A stretch of DNA of 43,871 bases from Rhodospirillales bacterium. GTDB lineage: Bacteria; Pseudomonadota; Alphaproteobacteria; CACIAM-22H2. The position numbers were made by a program, and so were the translations under genes. Of this stretch, positions 33,968 through 38,923 are shown one piece after another. The stretch spans positions 1-43,871 of the forward strand of contig CANFCX010000008.1 of NCBI GenBank assembly GCA_947445225.1, written 5' to 3'. The notes beneath the pieces are model-generated. The model saw only the letters and a program-made list of their open reading frames with translations. It was not told the origin of the DNA and searched no databases. Every line of letters begins with the position of its first letter. The stretch's first letter is position 1.

Positions 33968-36900
33968 TCAAAACGAAGGTTTAAAATAAGACTGCAAAGG
34001 GGCGACTTCAAGGCTGCCGCTCTTGAGCGCGGCAATGGCCTCCACCGCCGCCCGCGCCCCGGCCACGGTCGTGTAGTAAGGGATATTGGCCAAAAGCGCG
34101 GTTTGCCGGATCGAAAAGCTGTCGGCCAAGGCCTGGGCGCCGTCGGTGGTATTGAACACAAGCTGAACATCGCCGTTTTTCATGGCATCGACGATGTGGG
34201 GGCGGCCTTCCAGAACCTTGTTGACCTCGCGCACGGCGAGCCCCGCATCGCGCAGGAAGTGAGCCGTACCGCGGGTCGCGATCAGACTGAACCCCATGGC
34301 CACGAGGCGGCGGCTGGGCTCAACCACCGCGGGTTTGTCCTTTTCGCGCACGGAAATGAAGACCGTGCCGGCCAACGGCAGATTGACGCCGCTGCCGAGC
34401 TGCGATTTTGCGAAGGCATGGCCAAAATCGGTGTCGATGCCCATGACTTCGCCGGTCGATTTCATCTCCGGGCCCAGAATGAGATCGGTGCCGGGGAAAC
34501 GGGCGAACGGAAACACCGCTTCCTTCACCGCGATATGCGCCTGTTTTGTCGGCTTCAGACCGAAATCGGCCAGTTTCTCGCCCGCCATCACCCGCGCCGC
34601 GATCTTGGCGATGGGCACACCCGTGGCTTTGGCGACAAAGGGCACGGTGCGGCTGGCGCGCGGATTGACCTCGAGCACGTACACATCCTTGCCCTTCACC
34701 GCGAATTGCACGTTCATCAGCCCGACGACGTTGAGCGCCCGCGCCAGTTTTTCGGTTTGGCGCCGAATGTCGGCGATGACGTCCTCGGAAAGCGAATAGG
34801 GTGGCAGGGAGCAGGCTGAATCTCCCGAATGGATTCCGGCTTCTTCGATGTGCTCCATAATGCCCGCTACGAAGACGGTTTCGCCATCCGCGACCGCGTC
34901 GACGTCAACTTCAATCGCATCCTGCAAATAGGAGTCGATCAAGACCGGGTTCTTCCCGGAAACCTTCACCGCGCTTGTGACATAGAGTGTGAGTGCTGGC
35001 TCATCGTGAACGATCTGCATTGCGCGACCACCAAGAACATAGGACGGGCGCAACAGCACCGGATAGCCAACATTGGCGGCCGATACCCTCGCTTCGATCT
35101 CGGTGTAGGCAATTTCGCTCTTCGGTTGGAGGATCGCGTGTTGCTCGAGCAGCTTGCGGAAGCGGTCGCGGTCTTCGGCGAGGTCGATGGCATCGGGGGT
35201 CGTTCCCAGGATCGGCACGCCCGCGGCGGCCAGCGCCTGGGCAAGCTTCAACGGCGTCTGCCCGCCGAACTGGACAATGACGCCCAGGACGCGCCCGCGC
35301 GCTTCCTCGGCGCGGACGATGGCGAGCACATCCTCGACCGTCAGGGGCTCGAAATAGAGCCGATCGGCGGTGTCGTAGTCGGTGGAGACGGTTTCCGGAT
35401 TGCAATTGATCATGATCGTCTCGAACCCAGCCTCGCGCAGGGCGTAGACGGCGTGGACGCAGCAATAGTCGAACTCGATCCCTTGGCCGATGCGGTTGGG
35501 ACCGCCGCCCAGAATGATGATCTTGTCGCGGTCGGTGACCTCGGCCTCGTCCTCGGCCGGCTCGATACCATCACCCTCATGGGTCGAATAGAGATAGGGC
35601 GTGCTCGACGGGAATTCGGCGGCGCAGGTGTCGATACGCTTGAAGACCGGGGCGATGCCAAACGCGGCTCGGCGGGACGCGATGTCGGCCTCGTCCAGTC
35701 CCGACAATTCGCTTAGCCGCGCATCGGAAAAACCCTGCCGCTTCAGGCGTGCCAGACCCTGCGCGTCATTCGGCAGACCCCGGGCGCGGATTTCGGCCTC
35801 GGCGTCGACCAGAGTCTTGATCTGATCGAGGAACCAGGGGTCGTAGCGGCAGGCGGCGTGGATTTCGGCGATCGTGAATCCGTGGCGGAAGGCCTGGGCG
35901 ATGACCAGAAGGCGGTCCGGCGTGGGCGCGGCCAGGGCCGCCCGGATAACGTCGCGGTTTGCGCCGCCGGCGGCGCCTTGTATGTCGATTTCGTTGAGAC
36001 CGGTCAGCCCGGTCTCCAGCGAACGCAGGGCCTTTTGCAGGGATTCGGCGAAGCTGCGGCCGATGGCCATGGCCTCGCCCACCGATTTCATCGAGGTCGT
36101 CAGCAAGGCCGGCGACCCCGGGAATTTCTCGAAGGTGAAGCGCGGCATCTTGGTGACGACGTAATCGATGGTGGGCTCGAACGCGGCGGGCGTCACCCCG
36201 GTGATGTCGTTGGCCATCTCGTCGAGGCGGTATCCGACGGCGAGCCGCGCCGCGACCTTGGCGATGGGAAAGCCGGTGGCCTTGGATGCCAACGCCGACG
36301 AGCGCGACACGCGCGGGTTCATCTCGATCACGACCATGCGGCCATCGGCCGGGTTGATCGCGAACTGCACGTTCGAGCCGCCGGTATCGACGCCGATTTC
36401 GCGCAACACCGCGATCGAGGCGTCGCGCATCGCCTGATATTCCTTGTCGGTGAGCGTCAACGCCGGGGCGACGGTGATGCTGTCGCCGGTATGGATGCCC
36501 ATCGGGTCGATGTTTTCGATGGAACAGACGATGATGCAATTGTCGGCGCAGTCGCGCACGACCTCCATCTCGAATTCCTTCCAGCCGAGCACCGATTCCT
36601 CGACCAGCACCTCGCCGACCGGAGACATCCGCAGGCCGTAGGAAACGATCTGCTCGAATTCGTCGCGGTTATAAGCGATGCCGCCGCCGAGGCCGCCCAG
36701 GGTGAAGGATGGCCGCACGATCGCCGGCAGCCCGACGATCTCCAAAGCGGACCAGCCTTCGGCCATGGATTTGACCAGGCGCGAGCGCGGCGACGCTAGA
36801 CCGATCTTCGACATCGCGTCGCGAAAGAGCAGCCGATCCTCGGCCTTGGCGATCACCGATTCATTGGCGCCGATCATTTCGACGCCATGGGCGGCGAGCG

Positions 36901-37219
36901 TCCCGTCGCGGGCCAGCGCGATGGCGGTGTTCAACGCGGTCTGCCCGCCCATGGTCGGCAACAGGGCGTCGGGCTTTTCGCGGGCGATGATGCGGGCGAC
37001 GATTTCCGGGGTGATCGGCTCGATATAGGTGGCATCGGCCAGACCCGGATCGGTCATGATCGTCGCCGGGTTGGAATTGACCAGGATGATGCGATAACCC
37101 TCGGCACGCAGGGCCTTGCACGCCTGCGCCCCGGAATAATCGAATTCGCAAGCCTGCCCAATGATGATCGGACCGGCCCCGATGATCAGGATCGATTTGA
37201 TGTCGGTGCGTTTAGGCAC
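33968..37219 (-). CDS. carB: Carbamoyl-phosphate synthase large subunit
   Basis: A 1083-residue enzyme that makes carbamoyl phosphate for arginine and pyrimidine synthesis. Two ATP-grasp halves are visible: the first from [22 protein letters not shown] with [13 protein letters not shown], the second from [22 protein letters not shown] with [12 protein letters not shown]. An MGS-like regulatory domain forms the C-terminus. The GTG at 37219 is chosen because the protein then begins (M)[13 protein letters not shown], as in the family; the frame extends to 37315 through the inverted repeat. The DUF559 gene lies between carA and carB, and greA follows. Confidence 0.96.
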
Positions 37220-37236
37220 TGAAAAGCCAAATATTC

Positions 37237-37617
37237 TTATTTTTGGTCTTCTTCTTCCCCCTCCCCCCTTGCGGGGGAGGGTTGGGGAGGGGGCAAGGCC
37301 CCAAGCGCCGCGCATATTGTTTGGAGGGCGCCTTCGGTATTGCGCAATACATCATTGTTCCATAATCGAAGAACGCGGAAACCCTGCGATTCAAGCCAAG
37401 CGGTGCGCATTGAATCCGTCTTGCTCTCGGCATGTTGGCCGCCATCGACCTCGATGATGAGCCGAGCCTTAAGACAGGCGAAGTCCACGACATACGGCCC
37501 GAGTGGGACTTGACGGCGGAAGCGATGGCCCTCGAGCTGCCTCCGACGCAGCCGCGACCAAAGTCGTATTTCAGCCTCGGTTGGATTGCCGCGCAGTCGG
37601 CGGGCATTGCTCCGCAA
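37237..37617 (-). CDS. DUF559 endonuclease-like protein inside the carA-carB gap
   Basis: A 126-residue protein of the DUF559 family, a Vsr-like PD-(D/E)XK nuclease fold. [26 protein letters not shown] opens the domain. The catalytic pattern is intact: the D of YVVDFA, then E and D of [11 protein letters not shown], then a late [13 protein letters not shown] strand. The final residues ([14 protein letters not shown]) are encoded by the left inverted repeat, as expected where a repeat has been captured as a 3' end. The start is a TTG at 37617 with no good ribosome-binding site, since a stop lies 15 bases upstream. It has the same orientation as carA and carB. Activity and substrate are unknown. 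Confidence 0.82.
37257..37293 (+). repeat. Left 37-bp inverted repeat of the DUF559 cassette
   Basis: Begins CCCCCTCCCCCCTTGCGGGG and ends with TTGGGGAGGGGG. The outer part is itself palindromic (CTCCCCCCTTGCGGGGGAG), so it can form a REP-like hairpin. It encodes the C-terminus of the DUF559 protein on the minus strand. Confidence 0.88.
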
Positions 37618-37646
37618 AATGAAGTTATTCTAGACGATCTCGGAAT

Positions 37647-37683
37647 CCCCCTCCCCATCCCTCCCCCGCAAGGGGGGAGGGGG
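37647..37683 (-). repeat. Right 37-bp inverted repeat of the DUF559 cassette
   Basis: The reverse complement is identical to the left copy except for an A in place of a T at position 26 of the repeat (36 of 37). It lies 56 bases beyond the carA stop. Confidence 0.88.
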
Positions 37684-37738
37684 TAGGAAGTGGGTGACGG
37701 CGGATAGGTCTGCATTGTGTTGGATTGCGCCAAAGCCA

Positions 37739-38923
37739 TTACTTCTCTGATTTCATGAGTTCGGTGAAGCGTTCGAACAGGTGGCGGCTGTCGCGGGGGC
37801 CGGGCGAGGCTTCGGGGTGGTATTGCACCGAAAAGACGGGTTTACCGTCCAGCTTCAAACCCTCGACCGTGCCGTCGAACAGCGAGTGATGGGTGACGGT
37901 AACACCGGCGGGCAGGCTTTCGGGCAACACCTCGAAGCCATGGTTCTGGCTCGTGATCTCGACCTTGCCGGTTTCCAGGTCTTTGACCGGGTGATTGGCG
38001 CCGCGGTGGCCGTGATGCATCTTGCCGGTGCGCCCGCCGAGCGCCAGCGCCAGCATCTGGTGGCCGAGGCAGATCCCGAATAGAGGCAGGCCGCTGGCGA
38101 GGATGCCGCGAATGGCGGGGACGGCATAAACACCGGTGGCCGCCGGATCGCCAGGGCCGTTGGACAGGAAAACCCCGTCCGGCTTATGGCGCAATATGTC
38201 TTCGGCGGTGGATGCGGCCGGCACGATGGTCACGCGGCACCCGGCATCGGCCAGGCAGCGCAGGATGTTGCGCTTGGCGCCGTAATCGACCGCGACGACG
38301 CTAAAGCGCGGCTTTTCCAGCCGCCCATAACCGATCCCGGTTTGCCACCCGGTCTCGTCCCAGCCATAAGCCTGGCGGCAGCTCACCTCGCCGGCCAAAT
38401 CCATGCCTTCGAGTCCCGGCCACGCCGCCGCTTTGGCTTGCAGCGCCGCCGCATCGATGCCGCCATCGGGCGCGTGCTGCAAGGCGCCGTTGAGGGCGCC
38501 GCGGTCGCGCACCAACCGGGTCAACCGGCGCGTATCCACGCCGGACAGACCGATCAGTCCGTAGGAACGCAGCCAGGCGTCCAGGTGCTGGCGGCTGCGA
38601 TAATTCGATGGCTCGGTGATGTCGGCGCGCAGGACGATTCCGCGCGCGGCCGGCGTGGTGGTTTCCAGATCGTCGGGATTGGCCCCGACATTGCCGATAT
38701 GAGGAAAGGTAAAAGTGATGATCTGCCCGGCATAGGAAGGATCGGTGATGATCTCCTGATAACCGGTGATCGATGTATTAAAACAGACTTCGCCGGTGAC
38801 GATGCCCGGCGCTCCGATGCCGCGCCCCCAGAACACCGAGCCGTCGGCGAGCGCCAACGCTGCGGTTGCGGTCTTCCGGACGGCGGCTTGTGAGGGGAGG
38901 ACCGCCGCACCGGCGAACGACAT
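37739..38923 (-). CDS. carA: Carbamoyl-phosphate synthase small subunit
   Basis: A 394-residue glutaminase subunit that supplies ammonia to CarB. The N-terminal domain has ALALADGSVFWGRGIG and GEVCFNTSITGYQEIITDPSYAGQI. The class I glutamine amidotransferase domain has the nucleophile cysteine in LFGICLGHQMLALALGG and the histidine of VQYHPEASPGP. It is the first gene of the minus-strand carA-(DUF559)-carB-greA group, with a good promoter about 60 bases upstream. Confidence 0.96.
   Translation of the reverse strand: MSFAGAAVLPSQAAVRKTATAALALADGSVFWGRGIGAPGIVTGEVCFNTSITGYQEIITDPSYAGQIITFTFPHIGNVGANPDDLETTTPAARGIVLRADITEPSNYRSRQHLDAWLRSYGLIGLSGVDTRRLTRLVRDRGALNGALQHAPDGGIDAAALQAKAAAWPGLEGMDLAGEVSCRQAYGWDETGWQTGIGYGRLEKPRFSVVAVDYGAKRNILRCLADAGCRVTIVPAASTAEDILRHKPDGVFLSNGPGDPAATGVYAVPAIRGILASGLPLFGICLGHQMLALALGGRTGKMHHGHRGANHPVKDLETGKVEITSQNHGFEVLPESLPAGVTVTHHSLFDGTVEGLKLDGKPVFSVQYHPEASPGPRDSRHLFERFTELMKSEK

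Follow-up and report, generated by a model that had tools for sequence, protein, structure and literature searches.

The analysed stretch of DNA, hereafter the window, comprises 43,871 nucleotides of a Rhodospirillales bacterium (contig CANFCX010000008.1), whose genome (assembly GCA_947445225.1) has 2.6 Mb in 157 contigs. The window harbours carA (37739-38923) and carB (33968-37219), both on the minus strand and separated by a spacer of 519 bp (37220-37738). Within this spacer, a small gene of the DUF559 family (PF04480) is framed by two inverted repeats of the triplex motif (TM) type. Comparison with other genomes suggests that gene and repeats probably form a minimal selfish DNA element.

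The DUF559 gene (37237-37617, minus strand, the strand of carA and carB) starts with TTG and encodes a predicted Vsr-like PD-(D/E)XK nuclease of 126 aa, with the domain at 37303-37614 (PF04480, E=6e-40). The TM-DUF559-TM unit occupies 37254-37686 (minus strand), 433 bp from outer edge to outer edge, with carA as its upstream and carB as its downstream neighbour. Its inverted arms, 37254-37293 and 37647-37686, have 40 nt each and are complementary at 38 of 40 positions (95%); paralogous units likewise end at the outer TM edges. A preliminary description of this DNA had placed a 427-bp unit, with inverted ends identical at 36 of 37 positions, between carA and carB. The cassette indeed lies there, and the shorter repeat is real as the inner core of the longer arms. 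The observation that the 3' end of the gene is built from the repeat was also confirmed, as the last ~20 codons are encoded by the downstream TM.

Repeat identity and the DUF559 protein

Every arm consists of a palindrome, CCCTCCCCC-CTTGC-GGGGGAGGG, followed by an asymmetric G-rich tail directed toward the gene. In the TM downstream of the gene (37254-37293, plus strand), the hairpin at 37259-37281 is followed by the linker TT and a third strand reaching 37293. In the upstream TM (37647-37686, minus strand), the hairpin at 37681-37659 is followed by the linker AT and a third strand reaching 37647. The third strand GGGAGGGGG is the mirror of the purine arm GGGGGAGGG, and the tail adjoining the hairpin reads GGGGTGAGGG or GGGGAGGGG. 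The TM pattern matched the window at 37259-37290 (plus) and 37650-37681 (minus).

By their architecture, the unit ends are copies of the known BoxC/PIT "triplex motif" repeats, which comprise a pyrimidine arm, a complementary purine arm, a short linker and a third purine strand, all present in the window copy. The preliminary description had called the ends REP-like (repetitive extragenic palindromic). This holds insofar as they are small inverted palindromic repeats; the repeat itself is the triplex motif with its conserved third strand. The BoxC/PIT/TM motif was described from more than 260 genomes, forms a triplex in vitro and varies among E. coli strains (Holder et al. 2015, PMC4666352). 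Triplex formation was demonstrated with E. coli oligonucleotides, a different variant from the window TM, and no mobility functions were found near TM sites (PMC4666352).

In 111 loci (one TM per locus), the tail fitted the purine arm of the same TM, read in mirror order, far better than swapped tails did (z=9.4). Among asymmetric arms, mirror order prevailed over direct order by 63:7 (p=1e-12), and among strongly asymmetric arms by 31:1. An example from Chloroflexota has the arm GGGGGAAGG and, in mirror order, the third strand GGATGGGGG. Mirror order is what reverse-Hoogsteen pairing needs, whereas a third strand competing for the pyrimidine arm in a duplex would be a direct copy. Therefore, the triplex is favoured, and duplex competition was ruled out by the 63:7 ratio. 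This mirrored covariation of third strand and purine arm indicates that the triplex is conserved, and not the hairpin alone. TMs with an additional hairpin in the linker are outside the resolution of this simple mirror test. The motif as understood here also takes in variants whose third strands covary and variants with hairpin-bearing linkers.

The window palindrome occurs at a handful of further places in its own genome, so that the objection raised in advance, that the repeat might be found nowhere else, fails. A second DUF559 gene is located on contig C2 of this genome, framed by inverted TMs of a different type; this copy is common to a congener, flanks included, and the window copy is not shared. 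Two more TM-like elements lie ~1 kb apart in the same genome (locus L048, ~1000 and ~1970; G000:C1:30840 and 31810), one of them with a hairpin within the linker.

The residues E15, D44, E55 and D57 of the window protein are invariant in 13 divergent homologues and follow the PD-(D/E)XK pattern. Profile comparison matched the endonuclease-like protein PDB 3hrl_A (E=8e-41) and 3r3p_A (E=1.2e-4), an entry named mobile intron protein, which we take to be the EDxHD homing endonuclease I-Bth0305I. The match to Vsr was marginal (1cw0, E=0.5), and the Vsr model was absent from the hits of the window protein up to E=0.1. For the copy on contig C2, the Vsr model reached 19.6 bits, with a cut-off of 97.85. 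Membership of DUF559 in a defence system was considered and rejected, with marginal matches only, to parts of large proteins.

DUF559 genes and TM pairs belong together across many phyla

An inverted TM-like pair was found beside most DUF559 genes in 143 genomes of the class. A strong inverted pair (170-bp flanks, score 30) framed 48 of the 64 DUF559 genes and one of 27 other open reading frames (ORFs) in the same loci. In a scan of genome contigs, TM-like pairs were present at ~56 of 70 DUF559 loci (raw count 57/71, from which one positive, a run of N, was dropped), compared with 2 of 140 windows shifted by 700 bp. The two locus sets share a few genomes. Loci of the contig scan span about ten phylum- or class-level groups, and the positives include Chloroflexota (6/6), Nitrospirota, Omnitrophota, an Aminicenantes metagenome-assembled genome, and alpha-, beta-, gamma- and deltaproteobacterial lineages. 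TMs also adjoin DUF559 genes in Deinococcus, Neisseria, Synechocystis and E. coli, where the gene is ycjD. Where both sides could be oriented, the tails pointed toward the gene in 43 loci and away from it in four. These comparisons of genomes show that the DUF559 gene and the TM pair belong together.

The TMs lie 5-60 bp from the DUF559 gene and can fold, and the downstream TM overlaps the 3' end of the gene. Such an arrangement would also suit terminators or autoregulatory sites of DUF559, kept and duplicated with the gene. We consider this regulatory role improbable, as genomes contain up to hundreds of TM copies distant from the gene, and homology between paralogues that is bounded by the TMs would be left unexplained. 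In addition, the E. coli BoxC/PIT elements were without promoter or terminator activity in the published tests, insofar as these are cited in PMC4666352.

The association was also detected at the level of whole genomes, where TMs were counted with a strict pattern whose reversed control gave almost no matches. In the class sample, at least three TMs were present in 23 of 38 genomes with DUF559 and in 4 of 105 without (p=7e-13). With one genome per family, which is the only way in which kinship was handled in the genome-level tests, the counts were 20/32 and 2/89. In the phylum-wide sample, at least one TM was found in 28 of 35 genomes with DUF559 and in 14 of 125 without; outside the class, the corresponding values were 10/12 and 12/107. 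The odds ratios (OR) between DUF559 and genomic TMs were 16-39 and 28-32 in the two samples. Congeners may differ in both features together: genome G223 has four DUF559 genes and 121 TMs, and its congener G227 has none of either; G178 has two genes and 77 TMs, and its congener G240 again has none of either.

Classical REP repeats belong to RAYT transposases (REP-associated tyrosine transposases, of the Y1, HUH type), and the inverted TM pairs and doublets resemble REP and REPIN arrangements (PMC3116915). If a RAYT owned the TMs, DUF559 would be a bystander. However, in the same phylum-wide genomes the Y1 transposase showed no positive association with TMs, which were present in 16 of 81 genomes with it and in 26 of 79 without (OR 0.5), and no Y1 match was found in the window genome. 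RAYT as the mover of TMs was rejected on these grounds, and we give this explanation almost no weight.

Arrangements of TMs differed among genomes. In genome G064 (contigs C2-C17; loci L147-L172 in part), many TMs form doublets ~24 bp apart, mostly tail-out, which usually join one long-loop and one short-loop TM. Neisseria gonorrhoeae possesses regular arrays of TMs in a single orientation, with a spacing of ~281 bp (L117; NZ_CP119142.1, 48715-59000 and 1410614-1411764).

Gain, loss and change of site

Alignments of paralogues within one genome (G118, G115, G078 and others) span the unit from outer TM edge to outer TM edge and stop there, whereas the alignment of an orthologous pair (L002/L019) continues through the flanks. 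In the hpa operon of Deinococcus, the unit lies between the oxidoreductase gene and hpaE in strain NW-56, between hpaB and the oxidoreductase gene in D. wulumuqiensis and D. proteolyticus, and near a VOC gene in D. aetherius. The corresponding hpa genes of D. deserti, D. ficus and D. radiodurans abut or overlap; in D. radiodurans, hpaE is preceded by a further gene.

In the genus of G223, for which 61 genomes were searched, one intergenic site contains the full unit in five species, a solo hairpin with neither tails nor gene in four, and neither form in the others inspected. On the tree of the flanks, the two states are intermingled: the full G319 goes with the solo G332 and the full G223 with the solo G314, and G309 and G339 are both solo. 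Therefore, at least three independent switches between full and solo took place. The DUF559 copy of G301 shows decay of the active site.

Escherichia coli K-12 possesses both ycjD and the repeats. The TM doublet between hrpB and mrcB is missing in about a third of 5395 E. coli genomes (an estimate from 50 evenly spaced rows), with a short junction left. The gene ycjD is present in the sapF-fabI interval of ~3334 E. coli genomes (match covering at least 80% of the interval), and two inspected strains without such a match have an RND/MFS efflux operon at this position instead. The break between ycjD and efflux versions lies ~45 bp past the last TM (L130, L129, L133). In Deinococcus, E. coli and the genus of G223, the empty sites revealed no base-exact target-site duplication, although the ends are inverted. 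Taken together, the comparisons of genomes show that the unit is found at different sites and that it appears and disappears with the TM hairpins as its boundaries.

A homing variant is the main rival explanation, according to which DUF559 would cut a pre-existing TM hairpin and be copied in by double-strand-break repair through the hairpin arms, with the TMs spreading otherwise. After 3hrl, the EDxHD homing endonuclease is the characterised nuclease with the closest profile match, and at the one site in the genus of G223, the solo hairpin of congeners sits exactly where others have hairpin-tail-gene-tail-hairpin. Nevertheless, the empty sites of Deinococcus are overlapping or abutting genes without a TM, so that a pre-existing TM is not required, and the genome-wide co-occurrence with TM load would be left unexplained. 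Hence, we regard homing as an unlikely account.

At the window locus itself, the comparison was less direct. The preliminary description had expected relatives with an empty carA-carB site of about 92 bp, and none was found; most relatives have a spacer of 0-24 bp, and two congeners carry unrelated inserts of 1.2-1.7 kb. Nor does every relative carry the same cassette by vertical descent, given these other inserts and the cassette of a family member (G005), which lies within the carA-carB spacer in the orientation opposite to that in the window. The proposed mobile unit, with ends and gene belonging together, is well supported, by the tests on many genomes rather than by the window locus alone.

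The inserts of three genus members are all different (window 37220-37738, with the DUF559 unit; L254, 1300-2962; L255, 1321-2542). One congener insert, of ~1.66 kb, contains a short ORF and another ORF of secreted or membrane type, and the other insert has ~1.2 kb. The spacer thus resembles a hotspot for small cargo. In Sphingomonas parapaucimobilis (L122, 1824-2360), a DUF559 gene lies between yqeY and dnaG, adjoining carA; the carA-yqeY-dnaG cluster is also present in the window, and G034 has a DUF559 gene near carA. Since DUF559 is found there in all three, the carA/yqeY/dnaG neighbourhood was hit repeatedly.

Proposed mechanism and relation to known systems

The unit is probably a minimal selfish DNA element, in which a Vsr/EDxHD-type nuclease (DUF559, YcjD family) is placed between inverted TMs, in analogy to RAYTs and REPINs. 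The DUF559 protein would bind the folded TM, hairpin plus third strand, which would be accessible when single-stranded, for example on the lagging strand. It would then nick or cut the folded TM, and repair would copy or paste the TM-bounded segment to another place. If a folded single strand is what the protein recognises, both the weak coevolution of the sequences and the strict conservation of the structure would be accounted for. Doublets without a gene, such as the BoxC pairs of E. coli and the RIME-like pairs of Sinorhizobium, would be non-autonomous derivatives, as REPINs are to RAYTs. The Sinorhizobium doublets (~125 bp) appear to resemble the rhizobial element RIME1. Because the hairpin is palindromic, the ends of the unit are also direct repeats, and therefore recombination between them can delete the gene and yield one solo hairpin.

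A nuclease acting on its own repeat is consistent with all findings. The association and its dynamics are shown by comparison, and the cleavage of the TM by DUF559 is what we infer from them. Several points weigh against the selfish element. Some DUF559 genes have no recognisable TMs, and some genomes are rich in TMs without DUF559, such as G064 (42 TMs; rated 100% complete). TM and protein sequences coevolve only weakly (Mantel r=0.14), with a signal that fades below 55% identity and was not used as evidence. The window locus has no clean target-site duplication, nor an empty site among the relatives compared, and the switching between full and solo states could be passive recombination. In Caulobacter lacking a cytosine methyltransferase, the DUF559 protein VsrA causes an SOS response; it was proposed to be a mismatch-repair enzyme, and its authors call for more data on nuclease activity (PMC12907096).

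Some of these points would suit a passive cassette, in which the TMs are moved by another agent or by slippage, recombination between TMs shuffles DUF559, and the nuclease has an unrelated role, for example in mismatch repair. The TM-rich genomes without DUF559, the link of VsrA to cytosine methylation (PMC12907096) and the other cargo accepted by the car spacer speak for it. Nonetheless, other genes are not framed by TMs (1/27 and 2/140), the link to one gene family recurs over phyla, and the tails are consistently oriented toward the gene. We therefore find a passive cassette, like homing, unlikely, and prefer the selfish element.

Similar to REP/REPIN repeats with their RAYT (TnpA-REP), the TMs are small palindromic multicopy repeats with non-autonomous doublets, a single gene with inverted flanking copies and an asymmetric end beside the hairpin. 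The window unit likewise has inverted repeats framing a gene and the same repeat type elsewhere in the genome. REPIN/RAYT is the model system to which DUF559 and the TM doublets are likened (PMC3116915). The enzyme of the DUF559 unit, however, is a Vsr-like PD-(D/E)XK protein and not an HUH Y1 transposase, there is a conserved third purine strand, and no Y1 association exists. The unit was classed apart from REP/RAYT because the test for the defining enzyme returned PF04480 and not Y1. With the BoxC/PIT/TM elements of PMC4666352, the repeats share their architecture, the elements in E. coli and variability among strains; in contrast to the absence of a nearby mobility gene stated there, a gene family is here tied to the TMs across phyla. 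Similar to Vsr and to EDxHD homing endonucleases such as I-Bth0305I, DUF559 has by profile match their fold family and layout of catalytic residues (the match to Vsr being marginal). Unlike them, it is a stand-alone protein of ~110 aa with no extra DNA-binding domain, bounded by TMs and located outside introns.

In the open-access literature, with subscription papers and preprints outside the scope of the search, no paper was found that joins DUF559, YcjD or COG2852 with BoxC, PIT, REP or triplex repeats. DUF559 may be the long-missing partner that spreads the TM repeats. The chances are about even that DUF559 proteins define a new and very widespread class of mobile elements, with triplex-forming ends and a Vsr-type mobilising nuclease, of which the BoxC/PIT/TM repeats of E. 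coli, rhizobia, Neisseria, cyanobacteria and others would be non-autonomous members. The link between DUF559 and TMs gives both the gene family and the repeat a testable function. If the proposed reading is true, DUF559 would be the likely agent of the TM-associated strain variation in E. coli, and a DNA triplex would be the recognised end of a mobile element.
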